A stretch of 64,000 nt of DNA, from positions 8,854,001 to 8,918,000 of the forward strand of contig NZ_CP060828.1 in NCBI RefSeq assembly GCF_014489635.1, written 5' to 3'. The position numbers and the translations under genes were made by a program. The notes under the pieces are model-generated. The model was given only the letters and a program-made list of their open reading frames with translations, did not search any database and was not told the origin of the DNA. Below, piece after piece: positions 2,737-23,448 of the stretch (positions within the stretch are counted from its first letter, which is position 1; the number at the start of each line of letters is the position of its first letter). This stretch comes from Streptomyces roseirectus (GTDB lineage: Bacteria; Actinomycetota; Actinomycetes; Streptomycetales; Streptomycetaceae).

Positions 2737-4712
2737 CCACGGCGCGGCTGATCCTCCTGGACCACGCCGTCGCCCTGCTGGACGTCGTGGCGTGGTTCGG
2801 GACCGGCGTCGCGGCGGCCCTGCGGCGCCACCGGCTCGCCCGCGCACTGCTCCTCACCGCGCTCCTGGTCACGCTCGCCCGGATCGCCACCGTGTCCGTC
2901 CTGGCCGGGCGCGGCTGGTGGTTCGTGGCGGAGAAGGCGCTGCTGGGGCTCCCGCTGCTGGGCGTCGCGGCGGTGATCGCGGCGCTTGTGGCGGGGCCTC
3001 GGCTGTGGACGGCGAAAAATACGACCGGCGAGCGCCTTCCGGCGCGCTGCGTCGTCGTCCTCCTCACCCCCGCCTACGCCGCACTGGCCGGCCTCCTGGT
3101 GACCTTCCTCGCCGGCTACCCCCTCACCTGGTCGACGGCGCTGATGACGGTCGCCCTGGTGTCGGCCGGCGCCGCGCTGACCGCCCGGGTCCTGGCGCGC
3201 GAGGCGGACGGCGAGGAGGCGCGCGAGCCGACGGCACGTCATACCGCCGTCCCCCGACCCGCCGTCCCCCGGCGCAGGTTCGTCGGTCTCGCCGCCGGCG
3301 CCGGTGTCGTGGGCCTCGGCGGAACCGGCGTCGGCCTGTTGTTCCGGTCCGCCGACCCCGTCGTCACCGGAGGCGGCCCGGCTCACTCGTCCGGCGCCCG
3401 GCAGGCCCGTTCGGTGGCCGGTCTGCGCGGCCCCGCCGAACCGGCCCCCGGCGGTGCCCTGCGCCGGTACACGCTCACTGCGCGGAGGGCCACGGTACGG
3501 CTGGCGTCCGGCCGCGAGATCGACGCGTGGACGTACGACGGCCGGCTTCCGGGCCCGGCGCTCACCGCGACCGAGGGCGACCTGATCGAGGTGACGCTGC
3601 GCAACAGCGACATCCAGACCGGGGTCACGGCGCACTGGCACGGCTACGACGTGCCGTGCGGCGAGGACGGCGTCCCGGACCTGACCCAGCGTCCGGTGGA
3701 GCCCGGCGAGGAGTTCGTCTACCGGTTCCGCGCCGACCAGGTCGGCACGTACTGGTACCACACCCACGAGGCGTCGGACCCGGCGGTGCGCAAGGGGCTG
3801 TACGGGACGCTCGTCGTCACACCGCGGGAGGGTTCCGGCGCGCGGCGGCTCGACCTCACGCTGCCCGTGCACACGTTCGCCGGGACCGTGGCCGTCGGCG
3901 ACCGGGACGGGCGCACCACGCACACCGCCGCGCCCGGGACGGAGGTACGGCTGCGGCTGGTCAACACCGACTCCGACCCGCACCGGCTCGCGCTCACCGG
4001 AACCCGTTTCCGCCTCGCCGCCGTCGACGGCCGGGACCTCGAACAGCCCCAACAGGTCCGTGACGTCGCCCTGCGACTGGCCGCCGGCGGGCGCCACGAC
4101 CTGGAGTTCGTCATGCCGGACACGGCCGTCGCGCTGGTGCTCGACGACGACCCCGACACCGGCGTGCTGCTGCGCCCCGACGACGCCGAGGACGAGCCGG
4201 CGATCGAGGACACCTCCGACTGGCCCGAACTCGACCTCCTGCGGTACGGCACGCCCACCCGCGCCCCCTTCGACCCGGACGCCGCCGACCGGCACTTCAC
4301 CCTCGTCCTGGACCGCGCGCTCGCCATGGTCGACGGACGGCCGGCCTACGCGCAGACGGTCGACGGACGGGGGCACCCCTCGATCCCGGACCTGCTGGTC
4401 GCCGAAGGCGACGTCGTCCGGTTCACGGTCGTCAACCGGAGCCTGGAGACCCACCCCTGGCACCTGCACGGCCACCCCGTGCTGGTCCTGTCCAGGGACG
4501 GGCGGCGCGCGTCCGGCAGCCCGCTGTGGACGGACACGTTCGACGTGCGGCCGGGGGAGGTCTGGGAGGTGGCGTTCCGGGCCGACAACCCCGGGATGTG
4601 GATGAACCACTGCCACAACCTGCCCCACGCCGAGCAGGGCATGATGCTGCGCGTCGTCTACGACGGGTTCACCACGCCCTTCGGCGACGCGCACGCCGGC
4701 CACGGGGCGTGA
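2733..4712 (+). CDS. Membrane-anchored multicopper oxidase
   Basis: A 659-residue protein in two parts. Residues 1-160 hold about four transmembrane helices. Near residue 170 a second segment, RRRFVGLAAGAGVVGLGG, looks like a twin-arginine signal or anchor. Residues 230-655 form cupredoxin domains with all four copper-ligand motifs: HWHG (~300), HTH (~343), HPWHLHGH (~574) and HCHNLPHAEQGM (~625). It should take electrons from phenols, amines or metals and reduce oxygen to water outside the membrane. The GTG start overlaps the preceding stop. Its 3' end overlaps the convergent doxX-like gene by 44 bp. Because o-aminophenols are good substrates of such oxidases, a link to the neighbouring cluster is possible but unproven. 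Confidence 0.88.
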   Translation: MTTARLILLDHAVALLDVVAWFGTGVAAALRRHRLARALLLTALLVTLARIATVSVLAGRGWWFVAEKALLGLPLLGVAAVIAALVAGPRLWTAKNTTGERLPARCVVVLLTPAYAALAGLLVTFLAGYPLTWSTALMTVALVSAGAALTARVLAREADGEEAREPTARHTAVPRPAVPRRRFVGLAAGAGVVGLGGTGVGLLFRSADPVVTGGGPAHSSGARQARSVAGLRGPAEPAPGGALRRYTLTARRATVRLASGREIDAWTYDGRLPGPALTATEGDLIEVTLRNSDIQTGVTAHWHGYDVPCGEDGVPDLTQRPVEPGEEFVYRFRADQVGTYWYHTHEASDPAVRKGLYGTLVVTPREGSGARRLDLTLPVHTFAGTVAVGDRDGRTTHTAAPGTEVRLRLVNTDSDPHRLALTGTRFRLAAVDGRDLEQPQQVRDVALRLAAGGRHDLEFVMPDTAVALVLDDDPDTGVLLRPDDAEDEPAIEDTSDWPELDLLRYGTPTRAPFDPDAADRHFTLVLDRALAMVDGRPAYAQTVDGRGHPSIPDLLVAEGDVVRFTVVNRSLETHPWHLHGHPVLVLSRDGRRASGSPLWTDTFDVRPGEVWEVAFRADNPGMWMNHCHNLPHAEQGMMLRVVYDGFTTPFGDAHAGHGA

Positions 4713-5091
4713 GCAGCAGCGCGGCGGTGCGCTCCCGCCGTCCCCACGCGAGCACCGCGACGAGCGGGAGCAGGACCGCCGCCAGCAGCGAGGGCGTGCC
4801 GCCGACGAGGTTGGTGATCACCGCGCCGGTCATCAGACCCGTCAGTCCGAGCGCGGCGAGCCCCGCCAGCCGGGGCACGAGCAGACCGAGGGCGCCGGGG
4901 ATCTCGACGGTGCCGGCGAGGTACCTGAGCCAGTGGCCCGCCCCGATCCGGTCGAAGAACTCGACCATCTGCTCCGCGCCGGCGAGCTTCGCGGATCCGG
5001 CGGCGAGGTAGAACGGCACCAGGAGCGCCTGGATCACGAGCAGGGCGACGCGCACGGCCCGGCTCCCATCGGCAGGCGCCGTCCCGCTCAC
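4669..5091 (-). CDS. DoxX-family membrane protein
   Basis: A 140-residue protein with four predicted membrane segments and the DoxX-like pattern: a first helix ending FYLAAGSAKLAGAEQMVEFF, then LRYLAGTVEIPGALGLL. The GTG start overlaps the TGA of the upstream phzE-like gene (GTGA), so it is co-translated with it and is probably the last gene of that leftward transcript. DoxX proteins are small membrane proteins linked to thiol and quinone redox stress. In this setting it may protect against redox-active aminophenols, which is inference. The C-terminus is unusually Arg-rich (RGRRARRRRAW). It overlaps the convergent oxidase gene. Confidence 0.85.
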   Translation of the reverse strand: MSGTAPADGSRAVRVALLVIQALLVPFYLAAGSAKLAGAEQMVEFFDRIGAGHWLRYLAGTVEIPGALGLLVPRLAGLAALGLTGLMTGAVITNLVGGTPSLLAAVLLPLVAVLAWGRRERTAALLLTPRGRRARRRRAW

Positions 5092-7025
5092 GGCGTGCCC
5101 TCCCCGTCGCCGAGCAGCGGGACGAGCAGGTCACGCAGGATGCGCGGGCCGTGCTGGGTGAGGATCGACTCCGGATGGAACTGCACGGACCGCAGTCCCG
5201 GGGCGCGCAGGGCGTGCACCTCGCCGGAGCCGGGATCGCGACTGACCTCGACGGGCCCGCGCCGCCCCCACCGCCCGGTACCCGGGACGACGTCGTGCGC
5301 CGAGCGGGCGGCGTACGTGTTGTAGAACCCCACGAGCTCGGGGCGGTCGAACAGGCTGATCCGCCGCTGGACGCCCTGAGCGGGCACCGCGCGCCGGACG
5401 AGGTCGAACCCCAGCTCCAGGGCGAGTACTTGATGGCCCAGGCAGATGGACAGGAACGGCACGGAGCCGGCCAGCAGCTCACGGGTGAGCGCACGGAGCG
5501 CGGACATCCGGGGCTCGGCCGCATCACGCGGGTCCCCCGGACCCGGGCCGACCACGACGAGGTCGTACCCGGCCGACGGCAGCGGGCGGTCGAAGCGCGT
5601 GACCGTGGTCTTCAGACCGAGGGCGCACAACTGGTGGTCCAGCATCCCCGTGAACGTGTCCTCGTGGTCGACGACCAGGACCCGCCGCCCCTCCAGCGCC
5701 GGGTCGGGTCCGCCGCGGTCCGCGCCGGCGAGCCAGAACCGCGACAGCGTGGCGTTGCGGCCGTCCAGCGCCCGGCGCACCTGAGGGTCGGCGGCCCAGG
5801 ACGTGGACGCCGCCCCGGGGGCGGGCCGTCCGTCGCCGGGCGGTGCGAGGCCGAGCGCCGCGAGCATGCCCGCCGCCTTGGCCCGGGTCTCGGCGGCCTC
5901 GGAGCCGGGGTCGGAGTCGCGGACCAGGGTGGCGCCGACGCCCAGCCGGAGCCGGCCGTCGGCGTCGATCTCGGCGGTCCGGATCATGATCGCCGAGTCG
6001 AGGGCGCGCCCGCCCGCCGCGTCACGGCCGATGAGGGCGAGGACGCCGCCGTAGTGCCCGCGCCCGGTGGCCTCGTGGCGGGCGATGACCCGGAAGGCGT
6101 TCTCCAGCGGGGCGCCGGTGACGGTCGGCGCGAGCAGGGTCTCCCGCAGCACGTCGCGCACGTCGAGTCCGCTGTCGCCGGTCAGGACGTACTCGGAGTG
6201 GGTCAGGCGCGCCATCTCCTTGAGGAACGGGCCGTGCACCCGGCCGCCCGTGGCGCACATGCGGGCCATCATCTTCAGCTCCTCGTCCACGACCATGTAG
6301 AGCTCGTCGGCCTCTTTCGGATCGCTGAGGAACCTCAGCAGCCCGGCCCGGTCCGGGCCCGTCGGGGGGTGCCGGTAGGTCCCGCTGACGGGGTTCATGG
6401 AGATGGTGCCGCCGGCCATGCCGACGTGCCGCTCCGGGGAGGCCCCGATGAACGTGCCCGCGCCGGTGTGGAACAGGAACGTCCAGTGCGCTCCGCTCTC
6501 CCCGGTCAACAGCCGCCGGAACACGGCGAGTTCGGTGCGGACCGAGCAGTCGTCGAGACGCGCGGTGAAGGAACGCCGGATCACGAAGTTGGAGCCGGCG
6601 CCCTGCCCGATCTCCTCGCGCAGCACCCGCCGCACGGTCGTCGCGTACTCCTCGTCGCCGATGTCGAAGCCGGCCTCGCGCACCCGGACGTCCTGCTCGG
6701 GCAGCAGGGCCAGGGCCTCGTCGACGCCGATCGAGGTCTGCCCGGTGACGCGCAGGGCGAGCAGGGGCGCCCGGTCGTCGCGGCAGGCGAAGCCCCGTTC
6801 GGTGATCTGCCGGTAGGGGACCGCCACGAGCAGGTCGTGCCGGGCGCCGTCCACCGGCCCGTCGGGCAGGGGCAGTTCGGCGAGACCGGCCACGGCGTGG
6901 ACGTCGCCGGTCAGGATCTCCACGCGCGCGTCCGCCGCCGTGCCGGGCCGGTGGAGCAGGGCGAAGGCACGCCCGTCCGCACCGAGGCCGGCCGGTACAC
7001 CGCCGGTGCTGTCGGTGCTGTTCAT
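5088..7025 (-). CDS. phzE: 2-amino-2-deoxyisochorismate synthase, PhzE-like fusion
   Basis: A 645-residue fusion. Residues ~100-400 are the chorismate-binding synthase domain with PVSGTYRHP, DELYMVVDEELKMM, LAPTVTGAPLENA and GRGHYGG. Residues ~455-640 are a class I glutamine amidotransferase with the nucleophile Cys in SICLGHQVLALELG and the His/Glu pair in QFHPESI. PhzE-type enzymes turn chorismate and glutamine-derived ammonia into aminodeoxyisochorismate without releasing anthranilate. The phzD-like gene at 14616 makes this the preferred reading over an ordinary TrpEG anthranilate synthase. ATG 7025 follows a clear AGGGGAG ribosome site; a GTG at 7043 is less likely. It is divergent from the aspartate kinase across a promoter with a strong inverted repeat. 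Confidence 0.88.
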   Translation of the reverse strand: MNSTDSTGGVPAGLGADGRAFALLHRPGTAADARVEILTGDVHAVAGLAELPLPDGPVDGARHDLLVAVPYRQITERGFACRDDRAPLLALRVTGQTSIGVDEALALLPEQDVRVREAGFDIGDEEYATTVRRVLREEIGQGAGSNFVIRRSFTARLDDCSVRTELAVFRRLLTGESGAHWTFLFHTGAGTFIGASPERHVGMAGGTISMNPVSGTYRHPPTGPDRAGLLRFLSDPKEADELYMVVDEELKMMARMCATGGRVHGPFLKEMARLTHSEYVLTGDSGLDVRDVLRETLLAPTVTGAPLENAFRVIARHEATGRGHYGGVLALIGRDAAGGRALDSAIMIRTAEIDADGRLRLGVGATLVRDSDPGSEAAETRAKAAGMLAALGLAPPGDGRPAPGAASTSWAADPQVRRALDGRNATLSRFWLAGADRGGPDPALEGRRVLVVDHEDTFTGMLDHQLCALGLKTTVTRFDRPLPSAGYDLVVVGPGPGDPRDAAEPRMSALRALTRELLAGSVPFLSICLGHQVLALELGFDLVRRAVPAQGVQRRISLFDRPELVGFYNTYAARSAHDVVPGTGRWGRRGPVEVSRDPGSGEVHALRAPGLRSVQFHPESILTQHGPRILRDLLVPLLGDGEGTP

Positions 7026-7146
7026 GAGTGCTCCCCTTCGCACGAGACCGGATCACCTTTCGGATGGTGCGGCGGCGCCCGGCACCGGACATGACGTGAA
7101 GCCGCCACCGCTCACGCCCGGCGGCATGGCGTGAACCGCTGAATGC

Positions 7147-7174
7147 GGCCCACTACCCGGGTGAGTAGTGGGCC
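7147..7174. promoter_or_regulatory. Cluster operator 1: CCACTAC-N8-GTAGTGG in a 10-bp inverted repeat
   Basis: GGCCCACTAC (7147-7156) and GTAGTGGGCC (7165-7174) are perfect complements with an 8-base spacer. The site lies 60-87 bp upstream of the aspartate kinase start and about 120 bp upstream of phzE, so it can control both directions. A site of the same design occurs at 23555-23576 in front of the ParB-like regulator. Confidence 0.65.
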
Positions 7175-7233
7175 CCGGCACGACGGCCGCCCTACTGTCG
7201 AGCCCGATCCGACATGACGTGCGGCGAGGGGCG

Positions 7234-8520
7234 GTGACATCGGCTGTGGACGTACTGGTCCAGAAGTTCGGCGGTACCTCCCTCCAGACGCTCGACCGCG
7301 TCCGCCGCGCCGCCCTGCGCGTCTCGGCGGCGCGGCACGCCGGACGGGCGGTGGCCGTGGTGGTCTCGGCGCGCGGCAGCCGTACCGACGACCTGCTGCG
7401 GCTGGCCGCCGACGTCGGCGCCGCCGGCCCGTCCCGCGAACTGGACCAGCTCCTGGCCGTGGGCGAGTCCGAGTCGGCGGCGCTGATGGCCCTCGCCCTG
7501 GGCGGGCTGGGCGTGCCGGCGATCTCCCTGACCGGGCACCAGGCCGGGGTGCGCACCACCGACCGGCACGGCGACGCCCTCATCACCGGCATCGGCGCCG
7601 GCCGGGTGCGGTCGGCGCTGGCCGCCGGCCAGGTCGCCGTCGTCACCGGCTTCCAGGGCACGGCCCGCACCGGGGACGTCGCCACGCTCGGCCGCGGCGG
7701 CTCCGACACGACCGCGGTGGCCCTCGCGGCACGGCTGAACGCGTCGGTGTGCGAGATCTACACCGACGTCGACGGCGTCTTCAGCGCCGATCCGCGCGTC
7801 CTGCCCGCCGCCCGCCGCCTGCCGTGGATCGCCCCCGGCGTGATGGCCGAACTGGCTTTCGCGGGCGCCCGGGTGCTGCACACCCGCTGTATCGAACTGG
7901 CCGCCATGGAAGGGGTCGAGGTGCACGTCCGCAACGCGTCGACGCAGGCACCGGGCACGACCGTCGTCGACCGGCAGGACGCCGGACCGCTGGAGACCCG
8001 GCGGGCCGTCGTGGCGGTGAGCCACGACACCGACGTCGCCCGGGTGCTGGTGCACTGCCGGGGAGTCCGCCGGGACCTGGCTCCCGACGTCTTCGAGGTG
8101 CTGGCCGCCCAGGGGACGGTGGTGGACCTGGTCGCCCGGTCGGGGCCGCACGAGAGCGAGTTCCGCATGGGGTTCACCATCCGCCGCAGCCAGGCCGGAC
8201 CCGTCCGGGAGGCGCTGCACGAGCTGGCGGCCGGCTTCGGCGGCGGCGTGCACCTCGACGAGAGCGTCGGCAAGGTGTCGGTGGTCGGGATGGGCCTGCT
8301 CAGCCGGCCCGAGTACACCGCCCGGCTGATGTCCGCGCTGGCGGCGGCCGGGATCCCGACGAGCTGGATCTCCACCTCGCAGATGCGGCTGTCCGTGGTC
8401 GTGCCGCGCGAACGCGTCGTCGACGCCGTCGAGACCCTGCACCGCGCGTTCGGCCTCGACCGGCCCGCGCCGGCCGGCGTCCCCTCCGCGACGAACCCCG
8501 GTCGTTCCGCGACCGCCTGA
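7234..8520 (+). CDS. Aspartate kinase (cluster copy)
   Basis: A 428-residue aspartokinase. The N-terminal kinase motif is VQKFGGTS (residues ~8-15), followed by VVVSARGS, LGRGGSDTTAVALA and the YTDVDGVFSADPR segment; a C-terminal ACT-type regulatory part begins around residue 270. It phosphorylates aspartate, the first step to aspartate semialdehyde. The GriI-type enzyme next door is expected to use aspartate semialdehyde, so this copy probably boosts precursor supply and may be insensitive to lysine/threonine feedback (inference). GTG 7234 is chosen because GAGGGGC lies just upstream; longer in-frame starts exist from 7168. No aspartate semialdehyde dehydrogenase is present in the window, so the housekeeping enzyme must supply that step. 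Confidence 0.93.
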   Translation: MTSAVDVLVQKFGGTSLQTLDRVRRAALRVSAARHAGRAVAVVVSARGSRTDDLLRLAADVGAAGPSRELDQLLAVGESESAALMALALGGLGVPAISLTGHQAGVRTTDRHGDALITGIGAGRVRSALAAGQVAVVTGFQGTARTGDVATLGRGGSDTTAVALAARLNASVCEIYTDVDGVFSADPRVLPAARRLPWIAPGVMAELAFAGARVLHTRCIELAAMEGVEVHVRNASTQAPGTTVVDRQDAGPLETRRAVVAVSHDTDVARVLVHCRGVRRDLAPDVFEVLAAQGTVVDLVARSGPHESEFRMGFTIRRSQAGPVREALHELAAGFGGGVHLDESVGKVSVVGMGLLSRPEYTARLMSALAAAGIPTSWISTSQMRLSVVVPRERVVDAVETLHRAFGLDRPAPAGVPSATNPGRSATA

Positions 8521-8536
8521 GAGAGGCAGGACACCC

Positions 8537-9358
8537 GTGGCAGTACACAACGCGCCGTTCGCCCGGAGTCTGCGGCTGCGGCGCCTCTTCCGGCAGGGCG
8601 ACGGACGGCTGTTCGTCGTCCCCCTCGACCACTCCGTCACCGACGGCCCGCTGCGCCGGGGCGACCTGGACTCCCTGCTCGGCGAACTCGCCGGCACCGG
8701 CGTCGACGCCGTGGTGCTGCACAAGGGCAGCCTCCGCCACGTCAGCCCCGGCTGGTTCCGTGACATGTCGCTCGTCGTGCACCTGAGCGTGAGCACCCGG
8801 CACGCCCCCGACCCGGACGCGAAGTACCTGGTCGCGCGGGTGGACGAGGCGCTGCGGCTGGGCGCCGACGCGGTCAGCGTGCACGTCAACATGGGCTCGC
8901 CCCAGGAGGCCCGGCAGATCGCCGACCTGGCGGCCGTGGCGGGGGAGTGCGACCGCTGGAACGTCCCGCTGCTGGCCATGGTGTACGCCCGGGGACCGCA
9001 GATCACCGACTCCCGGGCCCCGGACCTCGTCGCCCACGCCGCCACGCTCGCCGCCGACCTGGGCGCCGACGTCGTCAAGACCGACTACGCGGGCACCCCC
9101 GAGGAGATGGCCGACGTGGTCCGGGCGTGCCCGATCCCGCTCGTCGTGGCCGGCGGCCCGCGCTCGGCCGACACCGCCGCCGTGCTGGCCCACGTCTCCG
9201 ACGCGCTGCGCGGCGGCGCGGCCGGTGTGGCGATGGGACGCAACGTCTTCCAGGCCGACCACCCCGGCTGGATGGCCGCCACCCTCGCCCGCCTGGTGCA
9301 CGAACCGTCGCACGTCCCGGACGCCGGCACCGGTGACCGGCTCGCCCTCACCCCCTGA
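8537..9358 (+). CDS. griI: GriI-like 2-amino-4,5-dihydroxy-6-one-heptanoate 7-phosphate synthase
   Basis: A 273-residue class I aldolase of the DhnA/GriI group. It has FVVPLDHSVTDGP at the start, VSVHVNMGS in the middle, the Schiff-base lysine in DVVKTDYAG (~residue 178) and the phosphate loop end VVAGGPR and GVAMGRNVFQ. In the grixazone pathway GriI joins aspartate semialdehyde with dihydroxyacetone phosphate to give a C7 phosphate that GriH cyclises to 3-amino-4-hydroxybenzoate. The next gene is the GriH homologue, which strongly supports this role. GTG start with an AGGCAGGA region upstream; it follows the aspartate kinase by 16 bp in the same operon. Confidence 0.9.
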   Translation: MAVHNAPFARSLRLRRLFRQGDGRLFVVPLDHSVTDGPLRRGDLDSLLGELAGTGVDAVVLHKGSLRHVSPGWFRDMSLVVHLSVSTRHAPDPDAKYLVARVDEALRLGADAVSVHVNMGSPQEARQIADLAAVAGECDRWNVPLLAMVYARGPQITDSRAPDLVAHAATLAADLGADVVKTDYAGTPEEMADVVRACPIPLVVAGGPRSADTAAVLAHVSDALRGGAAGVAMGRNVFQADHPGWMAATLARLVHEPSHVPDAGTGDRLALTP

Positions 9359-9394
9359 CCCCTTTTCCGCGCCCCTTGAGCCGAGGAGACACCT

Positions 9395-10498
9395 GTGAAG
9401 CTGTGCTGGCTGGACATCCGTGACGTCACCGGGCCCAAGGAGGCCATCGTCGAGGAGGCCGTCCACCAGCGGGTGGACGCCGTCGTCGCGGCCGATCCCG
9501 CCGACCTGGAGACGCTGCCCCCGACGGTGAAGAAGGTCCTGTTCCCGCGGGAGGGGCCGCTGCCGGACAAACTCGCCCCCGCCGACCTCGTCGTCGTCGA
9601 CCCGGCCCGGCACGGCGAACCCGCCGAACTGGCCCGGCGGCACCCCGAGGTCGAGTTCGGGCGGTTCGTGGAGATCACGGACGCCGACAGCCTCGAAGAC
9701 GCCTGCCGCTCCGCGCGCCACGACCGGTGGAGCCTGCTGTCCTTCCGCGACCCCACCAAGATCCCGCTGGAGATCGTGCTGGCCGCCGCCGCCGGCGCGA
9801 ACGGCAGCATCATCACGCGCGTGGCCGACGTCGAGGAGGCCCGCATCGTCTTCGGCGTCCTCGAACACGGCTCCGACGGCGTGCTGCTCGCCCCGCGCAC
9901 CGTCGGCGAGGCCACCGCCCTCAAGGCCGCGGCCCTGAGCGAACACGCCGACCTGGAACTCGTGGAGCTGGAGGTCACCGGGATCAGCCGGGCCGGCATG
10001 GGCGAGCGGGCCTGCGTCGACACCTGCACCAACTTCCGGCTCGACGAGGGCATCCTCGTCGGCTCCCACTCCACCGGCATGATCCTGTGCTGCAGCGAGA
10101 CCCACCCGCTCCCGTACATGCCGACCCGGCCGTTCCGGGTCAACGCCGGCGCGCTGCACTCGTACACGCTCTCCGCCGACCGGCGCACCAACTACCTCAG
10201 CGAACTGCGCTCCGGCGGCCGGGTCCTGGCCGTCGACGCGCAGGGCAGGTCCCGGCTCGTCACCGTGGGCCGCGTCAAGATCGAGACCCGGCCGCTGCTC
10301 GCGATCGACGCGGTCGCGCCCTCCGGCGTGCGGGTCAACCTCATCGTCCAGGACGACTGGCACGTACGTGTCCTCGGACCGGGCGGCACGGTCCTGAACG
10401 TCACCGAACTGACGGAGGGCACGAAGGTGCTCGGCTGCCTGCCGGTCGAACAGCGGCACGTCGGCTACCCGATCGACGAGTTCTGCATCGAGAAGTGA
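9395..10498 (+). CDS. griH: GriH-like 3-amino-4-hydroxybenzoate synthase (3-dehydroquinate synthase II family)
   Basis: A 367-residue protein of the archaeal-type 3-dehydroquinate synthase II family, as GriH. Visible hallmarks are KLCWLDIRD at the N-terminus, GSIITRVADVEEARIVFGVLEHGSDGVLL, then RACVDTC and the long GSHSTGMILCCSETHPLPYM loop, and EIKT-like FCIEK at the end. With GriI it makes 3-amino-4-hydroxybenzoic acid, an o-aminophenol, from the C7 amino sugar phosphate. It starts at GTG after GAGGAGACACCT. The paired genes are the signature of this shikimate-independent pathway, known from grixazone, platensimycin and cremeomycin clusters. Confidence 0.92.
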   Translation: MKLCWLDIRDVTGPKEAIVEEAVHQRVDAVVAADPADLETLPPTVKKVLFPREGPLPDKLAPADLVVVDPARHGEPAELARRHPEVEFGRFVEITDADSLEDACRSARHDRWSLLSFRDPTKIPLEIVLAAAAGANGSIITRVADVEEARIVFGVLEHGSDGVLLAPRTVGEATALKAAALSEHADLELVELEVTGISRAGMGERACVDTCTNFRLDEGILVGSHSTGMILCCSETHPLPYMPTRPFRVNAGALHSYTLSADRRTNYLSELRSGGRVLAVDAQGRSRLVTVGRVKIETRPLLAIDAVAPSGVRVNLIVQDDWHVRVLGPGGTVLNVTELTEGTKVLGCLPVEQRHVGYPIDEFCIEK

Positions 10499-10524
10499 CC
10501 GACGGCCGCGAGGGGGAGTGAGCG

Positions 10525-15254: not shown

Positions 15255-15274
15255 ACCCCTTCGTGGAGGAACCC

Positions 15275-15976: not shown

Positions 15977-16697
15977 CCCCGGCCGTGACCCGCCACGGCC
16001 CCCACCAGCCGGTCGCGCCCTGCCCGTGCTCCCGCTCCGCGCGCGTGTAACGCGTGAGGTCGCGGGCGGAGAACAGGGCCATCCCGGCGTCGAAGCCCGC
16101 CACCGCCACCGGAAGCCGGGTGTCGTGGAGGAGCCGGCCGTCGACGTGGAACTCCGCCGACGGCGGCTCGGCCCGGTAGGTGATGGCGTACCGGTGCTCC
16201 TGCCCCGGCCGCGTCGGCACGTCCAGCACCACCCGGTGGAGGGAGCGCGCGTGCCCCTGGCCCGCCAGGCGTTCGACCACCGCGAACACGGTGTCGTTCG
16301 TCGCGGCCGCGTTGAGGACGACACCGGTCTCCAGGTCGAAGACGTTCACCGTGCCGTAGGCGTCGAGCAGGTCGTAGGGGACCTGGCCGTAGGTGCGCAC
16401 CCTCATCGAGGTCTCGAACGTCAGCCGCCCCGCCGCCGGCACGGCGAAACGCCGCACCGACCGGTACATCTGCTTGGCGTTGTTCTGCCGAGGATCCGTG
16501 TCGTGGAAGCGGGTGAACGGATCGACGGTCAGCTCCAGCCGCCCGTCCCCGGTACGCACCCGGGCGTTGCGGTCCCGGTACCGGTACAGCGTGCCGTCGG
16601 CCCCGGTGACCGACATGACCGTCCAGCGGGCGGGGTCGAGGCGCGCGCCGGTGAAGTCGTCGTACGTCCACACAGCGGTTTCGGGCAGCGACGTCAT
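15969..16697 (-). CDS. DUF6081-like protein, probable beta-sandwich fold
   Basis: A 242-residue soluble protein without signal peptide. It starts with VWTYDDFTGARLDPARW and has repeated aromatic and beta-strand-like segments (DGTLYRYRDRNARVRTGDGRLELTVDPF, cut here as separate strands, and FHVDGRLLHDTRLPV), which recall concanavalin-like sugar-binding folds. I recognise it as similar to DUF6081 proteins found in some actinomycete biosynthetic clusters; no activity is known to me. It is the only leftward gene inside the rightward operon, convergent with the SDR (8-bp overlap) and divergent from the second monooxygenase. ATG 16697 is used; ATG 16733 is an in-frame alternative. Confidence 0.6.
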   Translation of the reverse strand: MTSLPETAVWTYDDFTGARLDPARWTVMSVTGADGTLYRYRDRNARVRTGDGRLELTVDPFTRFHDTDPRQNNAKQMYRSVRRFAVPAAGRLTFETSMRVRTYGQVPYDLLDAYGTVNVFDLETGVVLNAAATNDTVFAVVERLAGQGHARSLHRVVLDVPTRPGQEHRYAITYRAEPPSAEFHVDGRLLHDTRLPVAVAGFDAGMALFSARDLTRYTRAEREHGQGATGWWGPWRVTAGVR

Positions 16698-16865
16698 GCC
16701 GCCACGATCGGTGCCGCCGCCGGCCACGGCCATCACCCGTTCACGCTCTTCGGCCCGGCACACGCGCCAAGCCGTCATTGGCCGCCGGATTCCCGTGAAT
16801 GGGCCATGCCCGGGGGAGGGCGCCGCTCCGAGACTGCGTACGGACCGACTCGGGGAGGGGACAAC

Positions 16866-18464
16866 GTGGATCAGGCACCGGTACTGGTCGTGGGCGCGGG
16901 CCCGGTCGGGATGACCGCCGCCCTGGCCCTGGCCCGCCAGGGCGTCGCCTGCGTGCTCGCCGAGCAGGGCGTCGAGACCTCCGCCCATCCCAGGCTGGAC
17001 TACGTCAACAGCCGCAGCATGGAGTTCTTCCGCCGGCTCGGCGTCGCCGACGACATCCGCCGCGCCGGTGTCGCCCCCGAGCACCGGGCCGACGTGATCT
17101 GGTCGACCGGCCTCGCCGGCGAGCCCCTCACCACCTGGCGACTCCCCTCGGTGACCGAGGAACGCCGGCGCATCGCGGAACACAACGACGGCACCCAGCC
17201 CGCCGAACCCGGCCAGCGCATCTCCCAGACCGAACTGGAACCGGTACTGCGCGCGCACTGCCGGCGCGAACCGCTGATCGACCTCCGCTGCGGCCTGCGC
17301 TTCGACACCCTCACCCAGGACGACGACGGCGTGACCAGCCACCTGACCGACGTGACGACCGGCGAACGGACGCGGCTGCGCTCCCGCTACGTGATCGGCT
17401 GCGACGGCGCGACGAGCCGGGTCCGCGAGGTCGTGGGCATCGGCGCGGAGGACTTCGACGTCCCCGGGCTGCCCGGCGCCTTCATGGTCCACTTCAAGAG
17501 CCGCGACCTCGCCGCCCTGCACCGCCACGGCCGTTTCTGGCACTACTTCGCCTTCCGCTACGTCCTCATCGCCCAGGACGAGACCGACACGTGGACGGCC
17601 CACGTCAACGGCGTGACGCCGGACGAGTTCGACACCCCGCCCACCGACCCGGCGGCCTTCCTGCGGGAGACGCTGCGCACCGACCTGACGATCGACAAGG
17701 TGCTGCTGACCTCGCGCTGGCGCCCCGGCTTCATGATCGCGGACCGGTACCGCGCCGGCCGGGTCCTGCTCGCCGGCGACTGCGCCCACCGCATGTTCCC
17801 GACCGGCGCCTACGGCATGAACACCGGCATCGGCGACGCCGTCGACGCCGCCTGGAAGACCGCCGCCCTCGTCCAGGGCTTCGGCGGCCCGGCCCTGCTG
17901 GACAGCTACCCGAGCGAACGCCGGCCGGTGGGCCTGCGCAACCTGCACACCTCCCACCGCCACCTCGGCGTGCACCTCACGGCGGGCGCCCTCCTGCGCG
18001 CGGGCGCCCCCCTGGACGCCGTGGCCGCCCACCTCGACGCCGAGCGGGGCGAGAACGAGTACCGGGGCGTCGAACTCGGCTACCGCTACCGCGACTCACC
18101 CGTCATCTGCCACGAGGACACCCCCGAACCCCACTGGAGCCCCGGCCGGTACACGCCGACGACCTGGCCCGGCGGCCGCCCGCCCGGCCTCCTCCTCGAC
18201 GACGGCACCCCGATCCTCGACCGCCTCGCCCCCTCCTTCACCCTGGTCGACTTCACCGGCGACGGCCGCGCCCACCCCCTCCTCGCCGAGGCGACCGCCC
18301 AGGGCCTGCCGCTCTCCCACACCGTGATCACCGACACCCACGCCCGCGAACTCTGGGAACGCGATCTGGTCCTCCTGCGCCCCGACCACCACGTCGCCTG
18401 GCGCGGCAACCGGCCCCACCCGGACCCGGCCGCGGTGATCCGGCGGATCCGGGGCGCCGGATGA
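16866..18464 (+). CDS. FAD-dependent aromatic hydroxylase (PheA/MhpA type)
   Basis: A 532-residue group A flavin monooxygenase of the phenol-hydroxylase/MhpA type. It has VVGAGPVGMTAALALARQG (~9-27), the NSRSMEFFRRLG motif (~50), the DG motif VIGCDGATSRVRE (~177) and the GD motif VLLAGDCAHRMFPTGAYGMN (~300), and a C-terminal thioredoxin-like extension as in this subfamily. It should hydroxylate an aromatic ring with NAD(P)H and oxygen. With the first monooxygenase, the cluster has two separate ring-oxidation steps. GTG 16866 follows GGGAGGGGACAAC. It begins a second rightward unit after the divergent DUF6081-like gene. Confidence 0.85.
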   Translation: MDQAPVLVVGAGPVGMTAALALARQGVACVLAEQGVETSAHPRLDYVNSRSMEFFRRLGVADDIRRAGVAPEHRADVIWSTGLAGEPLTTWRLPSVTEERRRIAEHNDGTQPAEPGQRISQTELEPVLRAHCRREPLIDLRCGLRFDTLTQDDDGVTSHLTDVTTGERTRLRSRYVIGCDGATSRVREVVGIGAEDFDVPGLPGAFMVHFKSRDLAALHRHGRFWHYFAFRYVLIAQDETDTWTAHVNGVTPDEFDTPPTDPAAFLRETLRTDLTIDKVLLTSRWRPGFMIADRYRAGRVLLAGDCAHRMFPTGAYGMNTGIGDAVDAAWKTAALVQGFGGPALLDSYPSERRPVGLRNLHTSHRHLGVHLTAGALLRAGAPLDAVAAHLDAERGENEYRGVELGYRYRDSPVICHEDTPEPHWSPGRYTPTTWPGGRPPGLLLDDGTPILDRLAPSFTLVDFTGDGRAHPLLAEATAQGLPLSHTVITDTHARELWERDLVLLRPDHHVAWRGNRPHPDPAAVIRRIRGAG

Positions 18465-18532
18465 GGCGACGGCGGTTCACCCGGCACCGTCACTCCTCCA
18501 CCGGGCGGTGCCGACCCTCGACAGGAGCACAC

Positions 18533-19744
18533 ATGCAGCCATCAGGCGTGACAACGGACGTCGTCCACGGCGGGCCGTGGGAGGGCAGGCCCGCGGCGCA
18601 GCAGCCGGAGTGGCGCGACCACGCCGCCTACCACGAGTCCTGCCGGACGCTGGAGTCGGCCGCGCCCCTGGTGCCGGCCGAGGAGATCCGCCACCTGCGC
18701 CGCTCACTGGCGGAACTGCTCGCGACCGGGGCGCTCCTGCTCCAGCTGGGCGACTGCGCGGAGAGCCTGTACGAGTGCACCCCGCACCACACGGCCCACA
18801 AACTCCAGGTCGTCGACCGGCTGGGGAACCGGCTCAGCGAACTGACCGGCCGGCGCGTCCTGCGCGTGGGCCGCATGGGCGGACAGTTCGCCAAACCCAG
18901 GTCGCGGCCGACCGAGCAGCACGGCACGCAGGTCATCCCCGCGTTCCGGGGACACATGATCAACTCCGAACTCGCCACGCCGCACACCCGGCAGCCCGAC
19001 CCCCGGCGCATGGTGTGGGCCTACGAGGCCAGCGCCGCCGTCCAGCGGGCGATGCGCGCACACCGGCGCGGAGACCGCGACGGGCCCTGGTCGAGCCACG
19101 AGGCCCTGGTCGTCGACTACGAGTCCCGGCTCGTACGCCGCGACCCGGACACGGACGAGCTGTACCTCACCTCGACCCACCTGCCCTGGGCGGGGGAGCG
19201 CACCCGCCGCCCCGAACAGGCACAGGTCGCCCTGCTCTCCGCCGTCGCCAACCCGGTCGGCTGCAAGCTCGGGCCGAACGCGACGGCCGACGACGTCGTG
19301 CGCGTGTGCGCGGCGCTCGACCCGCGCCGTGAGCCCGGCCGCCTCGTCCTGATCCCGAGGATGGGCCACCACCGGATCCGGCAGACCCTGCCGCCCCTCG
19401 TCCGCGCGGTCGCGAACGCCGGACACCCCGTGGTGTGGCTGAGCGACCCCATGCACGGCAACACGGTGACGACCGGCCTCGGCCTCAAGACCCGCCACCT
19501 CACCGACGTCATCACCGAGGCCCTGCGGTTCCGCGACATCCTCGACGGACTGCGCCAGCACGCCGCCGGACTGCACCTGGAGGTCGCGGCCGACGACGTG
19601 ACGGAATGCGTCGGCGCGGGGGTGGAGAACGAGGACGGGCTGCACCGGCATTACACCACGCTGTGCGATCCCCGGCTCAACGCCGGGCAGGCCACCGAAC
19701 TCATCGAGGCGTGGACCAAGGGGACGGCGGCGGTGCGTTCCTGA
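18533..19744 (+). CDS. Class II 3-deoxy-7-phosphoheptulonate (DAHP) synthase
   Basis: A 403-residue class II (plant-type, PhzC-like) DAHP synthase. Hallmarks are PEWRDHAAY, LLLQLGDCAESL with the metal-binding Cys, VGRMGGQFAKPRS, VNPVGCKLGPNAT-like ANPVGCKLGPNA, and the metal ligands in VWLSDPMHGNT and CVGAGVE. It condenses phosphoenolpyruvate and erythrose 4-phosphate, the first shikimate step. It is somewhat shorter than housekeeping class II enzymes, which often carry extra regulatory helices, so reduced feedback control is plausible. It should raise chorismate flow for the PhzE-like enzyme. ATG 18533 follows ACAGGAGCACAC. Confidence 0.92.
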   Translation: MQPSGVTTDVVHGGPWEGRPAAQQPEWRDHAAYHESCRTLESAAPLVPAEEIRHLRRSLAELLATGALLLQLGDCAESLYECTPHHTAHKLQVVDRLGNRLSELTGRRVLRVGRMGGQFAKPRSRPTEQHGTQVIPAFRGHMINSELATPHTRQPDPRRMVWAYEASAAVQRAMRAHRRGDRDGPWSSHEALVVDYESRLVRRDPDTDELYLTSTHLPWAGERTRRPEQAQVALLSAVANPVGCKLGPNATADDVVRVCAALDPRREPGRLVLIPRMGHHRIRQTLPPLVRAVANAGHPVVWLSDPMHGNTVTTGLGLKTRHLTDVITEALRFRDILDGLRQHAAGLHLEVAADDVTECVGAGVENEDGLHRHYTTLCDPRLNAGQATELIEAWTKGTAAVRS

Positions 19745-19754
19745 TGAGGCGACC

Positions 19755-20753
19755 ATGACGGACGCGATACCCCTGACGCACCCGAGTGGCGGCGAGCGTG
19801 AACTGGCCGCCGTCGCCGAGGTGTTCTTCGCCGGCCAGGGCCCGCAGGGACAGGCCCTGGAGGCGGAACTGGCCCACCGCTTCGGCGCCGGCGCCGCGTT
19901 CGCCGTGCACAGCCCCGGTGACGCGCTCCACCTGGCACTGCGCGGGCTCGGCGTCGGGCCGGGCGACGAGGTGATCGTCGCCGACTACGCCCTCCCCGCA
20001 CCCGCCCACGCGGTGCGCCGCGCCGGCGCCGTACCCGTCCTCGCCGACGTCCGCGCCGACACCGGCACCGTGGATCCCTGGGCGGTCGCGGACCTGATCG
20101 GCCCCCGGACGGCCGGCGTGATCGCGGTGGACACCGCCGGCCTGCCCGCCGACTACACCGAGCTCGAGTGGATCACCGACCGCCACGGCCTGTTCCTCGT
20201 CGAGGACGCCACCTGCGCGGCGGGCGCGAGCTACAAGGGCCGCAGCGCGGGCGCCCTCGCACCGGTGGCCTGCCTGTCCGGGGCCCCGAACGGCGAGGGC
20301 GGTGAAGGCGCCGTTCTCCTCACCCGCGACCCGGCCTTCGCCACCGCACGGACCCGGTCCGGGACCGGCCGCACACTGTCCGACCGTGCCGCCGCGATCC
20401 TGCGCATCCACCTGGCCCGCACAGCCGAACTGCTCCAGCGCCGCCACGCCGTCGCCGCCCGCTACACCGACCTCCTCACCGGCGACGGCCGCCTCGCCCC
20501 GCCGCACGTCCCGCAGAACCGCACCCACGCCTGGCACTCCTACCTCGTGACCCTGCACCCCGGCGTGGACCGCACAGCCGTTGTCGCCGGCCTGCGCGCC
20601 CAGGGCATCGGCTGCGGCCCCGGCCCACAGGCGGCACACCTCCCCACCTCGGCGGCCCTCGCCCGGCACACCCTGGCCCTCCCCATGCACGCCGAACTCA
20701 CCCTGAGTCAGATCGAACGGGTCACGGAGGCCCTATTGGCGCTCATTTCTTAA
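19755..20753 (+). CDS. DegT/DnrJ-family protein without the PLP lysine
   Basis: A 332-residue protein with the DegT/DnrJ/EryC1/StrS fold: HPSGGERELAAVAEVFFAGQ, VIVADYALPAPAHAV, the pyrimidine-contact region LVEDATCAAGASYKGR and the C-terminal PQNRTHAWHSYLVTL. Family enzymes then have a segment like SFHPTKNLTTGEGG whose Lys binds pyridoxal phosphate. Here it reads LSGAPNGEGGEGAVLL, with no Lys, and the next loop is about 15 residues shorter than usual. It is therefore unlikely to be a normal aminotransferase. It may bind PMP or a substrate without transamination, or be inactive. It lies 10 bp after the DAHP synthase and before the KAS III-like gene. Confidence 0.8.
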   Translation: MTDAIPLTHPSGGERELAAVAEVFFAGQGPQGQALEAELAHRFGAGAAFAVHSPGDALHLALRGLGVGPGDEVIVADYALPAPAHAVRRAGAVPVLADVRADTGTVDPWAVADLIGPRTAGVIAVDTAGLPADYTELEWITDRHGLFLVEDATCAAGASYKGRSAGALAPVACLSGAPNGEGGEGAVLLTRDPAFATARTRSGTGRTLSDRAAAILRIHLARTAELLQRRHAVAARYTDLLTGDGRLAPPHVPQNRTHAWHSYLVTLHPGVDRTAVVAGLRAQGIGCGPGPQAAHLPTSAALARHTLALPMHAELTLSQIERVTEALLALIS

Positions 20754-20794
20754 ATTCCGTAGGAATCATCGGGAATCGTTTATGGAGGAGCACG

Positions 20795-21799
20795 GTGAAA
20801 CAAAAGCTGAAAGTACTCGAAGGGGCGCCCTACGCACGGATCATGGGCGTCGGCGCGTACCGCCCGCGCCGGATCGTCGACAACGAGGAGGCGTGCCGGC
20901 TCATCGACTCCTCGGACGACTGGGTGCGCTCCCGCACGGGGATCGTCACCCGGCGCTGGGCGGACCCGGACGAGACCCTGGGGGTGATGGCGGAGCAGGC
21001 CGCCCTCAAGGCCGTCGCATCCGCGGGCCTCGGCCCGGCGGACATCACCTGCGTCATCGCCGCCACCTTCACCCACCTCAAACAGACGCCGGCGATCGCG
21101 ACGGAGATCGCCCACCGGATCGACGCCGAGGGCGCCGCCGCCTTCGACGTGTCGGCGGGCTGCGCCGGCTTCGTCCACGGCGTCGTCCTCGCGGCCGACT
21201 CCGTCCGTGGCCGGGGCGGACACGTGCTGGTCGTCGGTGTGGAGCGGATGACGGACCTGCTGAACCTCCGCGACCGGTCCACCGCGTGCATCTTCGGGGA
21301 CGGCGCCGGCGCGGTGGTGATCGGGCCCGCCGAGACCCCGGGCATCGGCCCGGCGGTGTGGGGCGCGGACGGCTCCCAGGCGGACGCGATCGAGCAGAGC
21401 GTGCCGTGGGACGCGCTCAGGGACGGGGCGGGGGAGCACGACTTCCCCCACCTGCGGCAGGAGGGCCAGCGGGTCTTCCGCTGGGCCGCCTACGAGATGG
21501 CGGAGGTCGCCCAGCGGGCCCTGGACGCCGCGGGTGTGACGGCGTCCGACGTCGACGTCTTCGTTCCGCACCAGGCGAACGTCCGCATCATCGACACGAT
21601 CGCCCGGCGCGTCGGCCTGCCGGAGAGCACCGTCGTCGCCAAGGACATCGTGACGGCCGGCAACACCTCGGGCGCCTCCGTCCCCCTGGCCCTGGACGCG
21701 GTGCTCTCCTCGGGGCAGGCCCGCAGCGGGGACCTCGCGCTGCTCGTGGGCTACGGGGCGGGCCTGTGCTACGCGGCGACCGTCGCCGTCCTGCCGTAA
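20795..21799 (+). CDS. KAS III-like ketosynthase, candidate aryl ester/amide-forming enzyme
   Basis: A 334-residue FabH-fold enzyme with an intact Cys-His-Asn triad: Cys in FDVSAGCAGFVHG (~125), His in VFVPHQANVRI (~253) and Asn in VTAGNTSGASVPLAL (~285). No acyl carrier protein or polyketide genes are nearby. In A33853 assembly the KAS III-like BomK works with ligase BomJ and amidohydrolase BomN to join two aminophenol acids, and this cluster has all three types. The best inference is transfer of the activated aryl group to the hydroxyl or amino group of the second unit. GTG start after GGAGGAGCACG. It is the last rightward gene of the cluster. Confidence 0.85.
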   Translation: MKQKLKVLEGAPYARIMGVGAYRPRRIVDNEEACRLIDSSDDWVRSRTGIVTRRWADPDETLGVMAEQAALKAVASAGLGPADITCVIAATFTHLKQTPAIATEIAHRIDAEGAAAFDVSAGCAGFVHGVVLAADSVRGRGGHVLVVGVERMTDLLNLRDRSTACIFGDGAGAVVIGPAETPGIGPAVWGADGSQADAIEQSVPWDALRDGAGEHDFPHLRQEGQRVFRWAAYEMAEVAQRALDAAGVTASDVDVFVPHQANVRIIDTIARRVGLPESTVVAKDIVTAGNTSGASVPLALDAVLSSGQARSGDLALLVGYGAGLCYAATVAVLP

Positions 21800-21835
21800 C
21801 CGGCGCACAGTCCGGCGGGGGAGGGGACGGGGACG

Positions 21836-22414
21836 TCACCTCTCCGACGCGGCGCCGGACTCCCCGCCCTGCCGCCCCAGTGGGAAGCCGACCCCGCGCA
21901 CGGTCACGACCCACCCCGGCGAGCCGAGTGTGCCGCGGATGTTGCCGATGTGCGTGTCGATCGTCCGGCGTGACCACGCGTCCCCCCACACCTCCCGCAT
22001 GATCCGCTTGCGCGGGACCACGGTGTCGGGCCGCGCGGCGAGCAGGTGCACGAGGTCGAACTCCTCGCGCGTCAGGCCGACGGGACGGCCGTCCGGCGTG
22101 ACCCGGCGCGCGGACACGTCGACGCGCGCCACCGGCTCACGGAGACCGTAGGGCTTGACGACATAGTCGTCCGCCCCGGCCTGCGGACCGGGCACCCGGT
22201 CCGGCTCGCTGCCGCGTGCGGTGACGGCGATGACGGGGACGGCGCTGCCGGCGCGGATACGCCGGCAGACCCCGAGACCGTCGAGATCGGGCAGGTCGAG
22301 GTCCATGAGGACCAGGTCGGCACGCTCGTACGCGTCCAGGGCGGCCCTGCCCGTGGCGACCCGCTGCGCCGCGTACCCCTGCCGCCCAGGTCCCTCACCA
22401 GCGAGCCCGCTCAC
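21836..22414 (-). CDS. OmpR/PhoB-type regulator with truncated, altered receiver
   Basis: A 192-residue regulator. The DNA-binding winged helix (~105-185) looks intact: LTREEFDLVHLLAARP, RIMREVW and TIDTHIGNIRGTLG. The receiver lacks strand 1 and its acidic pair; translation from the GTG that overlaps the ParB-like stop (GTGA) gives MSGLAGEGPGRQGYAAQRV directly. The Asp in VLMDLDLPD, the Thr in VIAVTARG and Lys in VVKPYG remain. An overlapping frame reads LVRDLGG just before, as in full-length relatives, which hints at a one- or two-base frameshift. Several positions usually Leu are Pro (SEPDRV, VPGP, REPVA). It may bind DNA without phosphorylation or be decaying. Cluster control is likely from position. 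Confidence 0.75.
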   Translation of the reverse strand: MSGLAGEGPGRQGYAAQRVATGRAALDAYERADLVLMDLDLPDLDGLGVCRRIRAGSAVPVIAVTARGSEPDRVPGPQAGADDYVVKPYGLREPVARVDVSARRVTPDGRPVGLTREEFDLVHLLAARPDTVVPRKRIMREVWGDAWSRRTIDTHIGNIRGTLGSPGWVVTVRGVGFPLGRQGGESGAASER

Positions 22415-23448
22415 GCCACTCCGTGGCCGGATTTCGCCGTCGCCCGCTGTTCGAGCTCCCGGGCGAACTCCAGCCACGCCCCGGCGCACGACCGGGCCAG
22501 CTCGGCGACCGAGTCCCGCCAGTGCGGCGGCACGGCGTCGATCAGCTCGCACCACTCGACCGGCTCGATCGCGTGGCCGTCGACCCACCGGACGAAGGCC
22601 CGGCCGTTCTCCGCGTACCGCACCGCGGGGTCCCTGCTCAGACTGCTCAGCACCGAACGCCAGTCCGCGCCCGGGGCGTTGTCCGCCGCGCGCCGTGGTG
22701 ACGTCGCCGGGCCGCCGGACGGCGGGGCCGGCTCCCGGGCGGCCGCGCGGCGCGCGCCCGGCACCGGGTCCCGGCCGGCGCGCAGGCGCTCGCGCACGTC
22801 CCGGGCCGTTCCCGTCGAGACGCCGGCCTCGCGGGCGATGGCCCGCAGCGGGGCATCGGGATTCCTGGCGATGACCTCGCTCGCCCGTACCCTCCCCGAC
22901 GTGCCGTCCACCGGACGGACCCGTCCGTCCCGGCCCACCCGGCCGCCCTCCGCCGCGGCCGGGACGCCGAAGCGGCGTCGGATCGCTCCCACCGTCGTGT
23001 GGGACAGCCCGGCCCTGACCGCGACGGTCCGGTCCGACCAGCGCGGGTAGGCCGCCAGGATCCGGCGGGCCGCGGCCTCGCGATCCGCCAGCGACAGCGG
23101 CAGCCCGTGCCGGAGGTTGGCGTCGACGGCCCGCAGGAACGCCTCGCTGTCGTCCCCCTCGAAGAACGTGACCGCGATGGACTCCTCGCCCCGGCACCGC
23201 GCGGCCCGCACCCGGTGCATGCCGTCGATCACCCGCATCGTGCTCCGCTGCACGAGGATCGGCGGAAGGTCCCGCGCCATCGCCAGCAGCTCCACGTGCT
23301 CGGGATTCTCCCCGGTCAGCCGAGGTGAATCGGCGGGCCGCAGCGAGGAAATCGGAACCCGTGCGGGAGCCGCCCTTCGCGCCGCGAATTCACTTTCGGC
23401 TTCGGCGGAGTCGTTCGCTAATTTCAGGGTTCCTGGATCGCTCCCCAT
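22411..23448 (-). CDS. ParB/StrR-like pathway regulator with a TTA codon
   Basis: A 345-residue protein with a ParB/Spo0J N-terminal domain: VPISSLRPADSPR (~35), PPILVQRSTMRVIDGMHRVRAARCRG (seen as two adjacent motifs, with the ParB-like IDGMHR box), DANLRHGLPLSLADREAAA, then helix-turn-helix WSDRTVAVRAGLSHTTVGAIRRRFG (~140-165) and a second HTH-like stretch REAGVSTGTARDVRERL (~205). StrR/NovG-type antibiotic regulators have this make-up. Leu 10 is encoded by TTA (23419-23421), so expression should depend on bldA tRNA. ATG 23448 after GGTGA is preferred over ATG 23469. An operator of the cluster type lies ~107-128 bp upstream. It probably switches on the 5-22 kb cluster together with the coupled downstream regulator. 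Confidence 0.82.
   Translation of the reverse strand: MGSDPGTLKLANDSAEAESEFAARRAAPARVPISSLRPADSPRLTGENPEHVELLAMARDLPPILVQRSTMRVIDGMHRVRAARCRGEESIAVTFFEGDDSEAFLRAVDANLRHGLPLSLADREAAARRILAAYPRWSDRTVAVRAGLSHTTVGAIRRRFGVPAAAEGGRVGRDGRVRPVDGTSGRVRASEVIARNPDAPLRAIAREAGVSTGTARDVRERLRAGRDPVPGARRAAAREPAPPSGGPATSPRRAADNAPGADWRSVLSSLSRDPAVRYAENGRAFVRWVDGHAIEPVEWCELIDAVPPHWRDSVAELARSCAGAWLEFARELEQRATAKSGHGVA

Follow-up and report, generated by a model that had tools for sequence, protein, structure and literature searches.

The window analysed here is a 64,000-nucleotide stretch of Streptomyces roseirectus DNA (positions 8,854,001-8,918,000 of its 9.95 Mb genome, a single contig), and it holds a biosynthetic gene cluster at window positions 4669-23469 (Table 1). 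As judged by homology, on which all gene identities given below rest (Pfam, NCBIfam and PDB sequence matches), the cluster carries genes for two o-aminophenol acids, 3-hydroxyanthranilate (3-HAA) and 3-amino-4-hydroxybenzoate (3,4-AHBA), together with an aryl-acid ester ligase, a short amidohydrolase and two flavin monooxygenases. We favour, with somewhat better than even confidence, the reading that this cluster makes a mixed benzoxazole from 3-HAA and 3,4-AHBA, which is oxidised afterwards. Three features led to it: the occurrence of the putative ring enzyme tracks that of GriH, the ligase is NatL2-like, and the cluster itself appears to supply both precursors.

The gene content expected from an earlier inspection of the DNA was recovered. 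GriI and GriH homologues were found in an operon-like array with PhzD and an EntA-like short-chain dehydrogenase/reductase (SDR); from aspartate kinase through PhzD, the genes lie on the same strand with tight spacing or overlaps, as in one operon, while PhzE is divergent. Each route has a feeder of its own, an aspartate kinase (true start possibly 7246) and a class II 3-deoxy-D-arabino-heptulosonate 7-phosphate (DAHP) synthase, and two flavin monooxygenase genes are present. The GriH-type synthase passes the subfamily model NF002625 (567 bits versus a cut-off of 375), and the structures matched by PhzE and PhzD are those of phenazine enzymes.

Table 1. Genes of the cluster, with positions in the window and the matches behind each assignment
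Feature	Position	Strand	Basis or remark
DoxX-like membrane protein, adjoins PhzE	4669..5091	-	Pfam DoxX_2; found in L002, L004-L007
PhzE-type 2-amino-2-deoxyisochorismate synthase (3-HAA route)	5088..7043	-	PDB 3r74, 616 bits, residues 24-640
Aspartate kinase with ACT domain	7168..8520	+	Pfam AA_kinase, ACT_9; NF005154 394 bits (cut-off 376)
GriI-type aldolase (3,4-AHBA route)	8537..9358	+	Pfam DeoC; BagB/FevI 380 bits, under cut-off 500
GriH-type 3,4-AHBA synthase	9395..10498	+	Pfam DHQS; BagC/FevH 615 bits, under cut-off 750
253-residue amidohydrolase, proposed benzoxazole cyclase	10525..11286	+	Amidohydro_2
NatL2/BomJ-type aryl-acid adenylating ester ligase	11283..12599	+	NatL2 6siw, 622 bits
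Flavin (FAD) monooxygenase 1	12601..13809	+	Closest solved relative tropone 2-monooxygenase
DhbA/EntA-type SDR, proposed 2,3-dihydro-3-hydroxyanthranilate dehydrogenase	13800..14585	+	TIGR04316 345 bits, cut-off 300
PhzD-type isochorismatase	14616..15254	+	PDB 3r77, 256 bits
Second SDR	15275..15976	+	Pfam adh_short_C2 (range from 15281)
DUF6081 protein	15969..16673	-	Pfam DUF6081
FAD monooxygenase 2, RebC-like aromatic ring hydroxylase	about 16866..18464	+	Pfam FAD_binding_3, Rng_hyd_C (range from 16872)
Class II DAHP synthase	18548..19744	+	Pfam DAHP_synth_2 over cut-off; TIGR01358 385 bits, under cut-off 615
DegT/DnrJ-like protein without the pyridoxal phosphate (PLP) lysine	19755..20753	+	Profile match, alignment
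FabH-type 3-ketoacyl-ACP synthase III (KAS III)	20795..21799	+	FabH/ZhuH-type match
OmpR-type response regulator	21836..22414	-	Pfam Response_reg, Trans_reg_C
Putative helix-turn-helix regulator	22411..23469	-	HTH_23, under its cut-off

A search of genome contigs with the amidohydrolase revealed seven relatives (loci L002-L008), found in S. carminius (L002), S. malachitofuscus, S. toyocaensis, S. speibonae, Streptomyces sp. NK08204, Streptomyces sp. NK15101 and Phytohabitans suffuscus. All seven keep the core order PhzE, aspartate kinase, GriI, GriH, amidohydrolase, ligase, monooxygenase 1, SDR, PhzD, second SDR, DUF6081 and monooxygenase 2 at roughly 70-93% identity. Since the core is syntenic in these seven of seven, the arrangement is not due to chance. 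The draft locus L006 has some fragmentary genes, and in some loci the genes at the ends are cut. The amidohydrolase was present in 12 of 392 Streptomyces genomes (E up to 1e-40), the window's own among them, and in a phylum-wide sample of 396 genomes (E up to 1e-25) only in the window's own. G356 repeats the L002 locus and is not counted separately. In all, 18 distinct amidohydrolase loci were examined, and they fall into three kinds. Twelve are dual clusters with PhzE, PhzD and the 3,4-AHBA genes (the window, L002-L008, G074, G248, G310 and G314); three are split clusters (G047, G105 and G050), which run aspartate kinase-GriI-GriH-amidohydrolase-ligase-monooxygenase 1-SDR without PhzE or PhzD in the cluster; and three are AHBA-only clusters (G362, G039 and G168). 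For G050, represented by a 9.9-kb contig from a draft genome, little can be said on gene absence. The recurrence of both routes in 12 of the 18 loci makes joint use of the two acids likely, and to this extent the original reading of two o-aminophenol routes in one cluster is supported, although the BomN- and BomK-type assembly that it proposed is not.

The ligase was found in 24 of the 392 Streptomyces genomes (E up to 1e-70). Twelve of these lack the present amidohydrolase: six have 3-HAA-only loci (G211, G131, G225, G066, G231 and G027), four have bag-like loci (G257, G382, G082 and G352), and two have others (G337 and G284). The bag-like label denotes GriI/GriH with such a ligase and a shared gene of about 496 codons, the product of which we take to be an aromatic ammonia-lyase. 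The proteins of the 3-HAA-only clusters served throughout as Nat-type proxies, BomN, BomJ and BomK themselves being outside the comparison.

The ligase shares 65% identity with NatL2, in keeping with the BomJ type assigned to it at the outset, and also matches AjiA1 (602 bits), whereas its match to 9s3l (171 bits), which we take as ClxA, corresponds to 31% identity. The 9s3l deposit is titled only phenylacetate-CoA ligase; it was taken as ClxA because Tyr and Asn stand where NatL2 has E235 and T243, as passages of PMC12519233 give for ClxA. Against the BagE/FevW model, the ligase scored 570 bits, under the cut-off of 800. With the residue roles described for NatL2 in parts of PMC7204872 and PMC12519233, we found that the donor-site residues E235, Y236 and T239, the acceptor residues T128, T135 and W178, the carboxylate-binding R156, the four Zn ligands and the trans-acting K418 are all retained. 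The changes relative to NatL2 are A211G, A212G, N180V and T243S, and Gly at 211/212 also occurs in the ligases of the 3-HAA-only clusters G211 and G131. In particular, Asn180 is present in 7/7 3-HAA-only rows (NatL2 included) and in 0/14 of the dual or split rows covering this column, the L006 ligase being truncated there; the dual ligases thus differ from those that dimerise 3-HAA. All 15 dual or split rows have Glu at residue 235; Asp is found there in the three AHBA-only clusters as well as in G337 and G284. Judged by its sequence, the pocket would allow 3-HAA as the donor with an altered acceptor. A ligase tree (33 rows, truncated L006 left out; 13 of 30 inner branches starred) did not resolve the branching order of the dual, 3-HAA and AHBA ligases.

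The ligase also bears on whether the core could be a 3-HAA homodimer benzoxazole of the A33853/UK-1 type, with 3,4-AHBA used in another part of the molecule. The close identity to NatL2 and the shared acceptor residues, including the carboxylate-binding Arg, would suit such a product, but the distribution of Asn180 speaks against it, as does the fact that the cluster genes include no NatAM-type amidohydrolase, and we regard it as very improbable.

The amidohydrolase adjoins GriH in 18/18 loci and is therefore probably of the closoxazole (ClxD) type. It is 41-47% identical to the copies in two distant loci, L029 and L030, which have a closoxazole-like two-ligase layout, and from this we infer homology to ClxD and PfxB. 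The enzyme had been called BomN type, which was rejected since no similarity to the NatAM-type proxies of the 3-HAA-only clusters was detectable (blastp E>1; hhalign probability 0.3%). Those clusters have a NatAM-type enzyme instead in six of six cases; one of these six proteins scored 929 bits against 6sj0 and shares 58-86% identity with the remaining five. The two-domain NatAM/BomN type also comprises about 494 residues, versus 253 in the window. Similarly, the KAS III had been described as BomK type, and this was rejected because the protein is of the FabH/ZhuH type and gave only partial matches of 24-30% identity to the KAS III of the six 3-HAA-only clusters. Of the A33853-type assembly originally proposed, a ligase of the NatL2 aryl-ester type thus stands; measured against the Nat-type proxies, the amidohydrolase and the KAS III fall away from the Bom/Nat enzymes and the ligase does not. 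The benzoxazole inference now draws on two things, the ligase and the closoxazole-like arrangement of GriH, amidohydrolase and ligase.

In the proposed pathway, DAHP synthase, PhzE, PhzD and the DhbA-type SDR would lead from chorismate to 3-HAA, and aspartate kinase, GriI and GriH would provide 3,4-AHBA from aspartate semialdehyde and dihydroxyacetone phosphate. The NatL2-type ligase would activate one acid by adenylation, most probably 3-HAA, and attack by the 4-hydroxyl of 3,4-AHBA would form an aryl ester. Through the amidohydrolase, the amine of 3,4-AHBA would next attack the carbonyl of this ester with loss of water, giving the predicted core 2-(2-amino-3-hydroxyphenyl)benzoxazole-5-carboxylic acid; the reverse donor order would give a benzoxazole-4-carboxylate. 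Finally, the two flavin monooxygenases may hydroxylate or oxidatively decarboxylate this core. The mixed dimer and the two homodimers share one formula and mass (C14H10N2O4, calculated [M+H]+ 271.071), so that mass alone cannot identify the dimer.

Several observations weigh against a mixed benzoxazole. The AHBA-only clusters carry the amidohydrolase with 3,4-AHBA genes and without in-cluster PhzE or PhzD, and the split clusters keep the SDR although they also lack these two genes; this SDR may have a role other than in the 3-HAA route. Asn180 also occurs in the G337 ligase, though neither route is present in that stretch. Additionally, Glu235 is found in the split rows and in 4/4 bag-like rows, where the donor should be 3,4-AHBA; residue 235 was consequently rejected as proof of donor choice. 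Some of these points fit a core that is a 3,4-AHBA homodimer of the closoxazole type, with 3-HAA as a third unit or attached or used afterwards. The constant pairing of the amidohydrolase with GriH agrees with this, and the AHBA-only clusters, together with split G047 and G105, indicate that 3,4-AHBA alone may suffice for enzymes of this family. We nevertheless consider it quite unlikely: the window cluster has one ligase, compared with two in the closoxazole clusters as described in part of PMC12118335, this ligase is far closer to NatL2 than to ClxA, and it keeps Glu235 where the AHBA-only ligases have Asp.

The amidohydrolase sequence itself provides a further point of this kind. Metal-dependent amidohydrolase_2 enzymes bind the metal through an HxH motif on strand 1, a His on strand 5 and an Asp on strand 8. 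In the sequence alignment, the window enzyme has HxR for HxH, Val for the strand-5 His and Glu for the strand-8 Asp, and the first two changes are found in 15/15 lineage amidohydrolases. With two usual metal ligands gone, cyclase activity is not assured; the cyclisation may be metal-independent, or the amidohydrolase may do something else. The AlphaFold model (pLDDT, predicted local distance difference test, 90.4) matched the uncharacterised 3cjp first and then many ACMSD-group decarboxylases and hydrolases; NatAM was not listed among the structural matches, an absence that proves nothing. It is conceivable from these results that the product is no benzoxazole at all and that the degenerate enzyme is non-cyclising or a different enzyme, leaving an ester, amide, phenoxazinone or quinone made from both aminophenols. 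A multicopper oxidase gene near the cluster, syntenic in L002, L004, L005 and L007, and the bagremycin-like ligase relatives that occur with GriI/GriH and without this amidohydrolase type would also agree with such a product. We judge it unlikely, however, as the amidohydrolase is well conserved (H10, N85-R88, H164 and E213 among the residues invariant in 15 aligned sequences) and stands with GriH in each of the 18 loci, and as the distant L029 and L030 enzymes retain HxH and the strand-5 His.

The four further, more divergent Streptomyces dual clusters (G074, G248, G310 and G314) differ in gene order. In G074 and G248, some 15 kb upstream, PhzE and PhzD make up a group of their own together with an SDR, a homologue of monooxygenase 2 and DAHP synthase. 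In G314, no DAHP synthase was found in the stretches fetched, and the SDR, 58% identical to that of the window, forms one 653-residue frame with monooxygenase 1 (L027:11247-13208), a fusion hinting that the two act together. In G047 and G105, a PhzE-PhzD-DAHP synthase group accompanied by PhzF and PhzA/B is found at a distance of 0.7-1 Mb; this phenazine locus, recognised by Pfam in G047 and by PhzF and PhzA/B genes of 94-96% identity in G105, could supply 2,3-dihydro-3-hydroxyanthranilate in trans. The occurrence of PhzD elsewhere in the genomes of G047, G105 and G050 was rejected as evidence of supply because PhzD is common (193 of 392 Streptomyces genomes).

For the PhzE and PhzD trees, four copies were labelled phz beforehand, a label not established for the G168 and second G310 copies; no PhzF or PhzA/B was found in the stretches fetched for these two loci. 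In the PhzE tree, the window-type copies formed their own clade and the G074/G248 copies joined PhzE from non-dual loci (93/97, slightly under the strict mark). The dual copies were on a single side of a branch in 0/200 bootstrap trees. This suggests that the 3-HAA genes were recruited repeatedly; as the well-supported branches force only one change, recruitment more than once is only suggested. A wider proposal, which we find doubtful, would join these strands: a metal-independent amidohydrolase, with Arg for a zinc ligand, closing the 3-HAA/3,4-AHBA ester in a heterodimeric benzoxazole class defined by a NatL2-type ligase and a ClxD-like cyclase, for which the 3-HAA genes were recruited more than once in actinomycetes.

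Both monooxygenases have homologues in 12/12 dual clusters (41-86% identity). Monooxygenase 1 was closest to tropone 2-monooxygenase (318 bits), followed by decarboxylative vanillate hydroxylase and 6-hydroxynicotinate monooxygenase (232-233 bits), and monooxygenase 2 was closest to RebC (228 bits). The KAS III has Cys, His and Asn in the alignment, which we presume to be its triad. It lies beside the cluster in five of the seven named relatives and not beside L003 or L008, nor was it found in the stretches of G047, G074, G105, G248, G310 and G314, for which reason we rejected it as a core enzyme. It is a FabH paralogue with an accessory role; it may act as an acyltransferase or serve self-resistance as a FabH that is itself resistant. 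The genome's next FabH is 58% identical to the cluster-edge KAS III, and two relatives hold FabH copies of 57-60% identity with neighbours that we take to be fabD, acpP and fabF. The adjoining DegT/DnrJ-like protein lacks the PLP lysine in 4/4 aligned sequences (window, L004, L005 and L007) and is a probable conserved pseudoenzyme, also accessory.

Other genes in and around these clusters were also noted. A sodium:solute symporter gene precedes monooxygenase 2 in L003 (L003:16813-18486) and L022 (L022:5118-6851), and similar-sized genes are present in L008 and L026; these four symporter-bearing clusters are without KAS III, and the symporter is not among the window's called genes. A vanadium-chloroperoxidase-like gene (L022:1840-3282; Pfam DUF6851 and VCPO_2nd) adjoins a split cluster, with one alike in length and position at L026:1750-3192, and split clusters may yield halogenated products. 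The second SDR is kept in L002-L008, L022, L026 and L077. The putative regulator at the cluster end, presumably StrR-like by its motif, has homologues beside the relatives' clusters (78-80% in L080/L081, 62% in L026). The multicopper oxidase gene mentioned above lies with genes for a NarL-type response regulator and a DUF6220 protein at window positions 1343-4712, and this group is syntenic in the same four loci and partly in L006.

The published benzoxazole pathways considered use one kind of o-aminophenol acid, either 3-HAA or 3,4-AHBA, and in the open-access literature we found no report of a product built from both. If the mixed benzoxazole is correct, the cluster would offer a direct way to unsymmetrical benzoxazoles, through the ligase of one branch and a cyclase unlike that of the same branch, and would test whether a condensing amidohydrolase needs a metal. 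The comparison with Nat-type proxies also indicates that this amidohydrolase should not be equated with BomN. Upon comparison with known systems, we found partial likeness to each. The bagremycin and ferroverdin clusters (bag, fev) share GriI/GriH homologues and a ligase of the BagE/FevW kind, which the window ligase matches under cut-off; in the fetched stretches of the four bag-like loci, which stand in for the bag and fev sequences themselves, none of PhzE, PhzD and this kind of amidohydrolase was found, and the ligases of these loci differ from the window ligase in the acceptor pocket. Microechmycin (mich) likewise comes from a benzoxazole cluster with a BomJ homologue and 3-HAA genes, but according to passages of PMC9864271 it uses 3-HAA only and has a BomN homologue. 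The nataxazole, A33853 and caboxamycin clusters (nat, bom, cbx), as described in parts of PMC7204872 and PMC5481532, share the PhzE-PhzD-SDR-DAHP synthase set and a NatL2/BomJ-type ligase. In contrast to them, the window's called genes include no NatAM-type amidohydrolase, acyl carrier protein (ACP) or second ligase, its KAS III belongs to another subfamily, and GriI/GriH and aspartate kinase are added. The closoxazole clusters clx (Clostridium cavendishii) and pfx (Pyxidicoccus fallax), as set out in passages of PMC12118335 and PMC12519233, likewise have GriI/GriH-type genes, a non-NatAM amidohydrolase and PaaK-type ligases, and the short amidohydrolase beside GriH is common to them and the window. 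They use two ligases, the second adding a third unit (in a passage of PMC12118335), whereas one NatL2-type ligase is present among the called genes at 4669-23469. Compared with clx and pfx, the window also has altered metal ligands in its amidohydrolase, the closoxazole papers serving here by description only, and it adds the 3-HAA genes and the two flavin monooxygenases.

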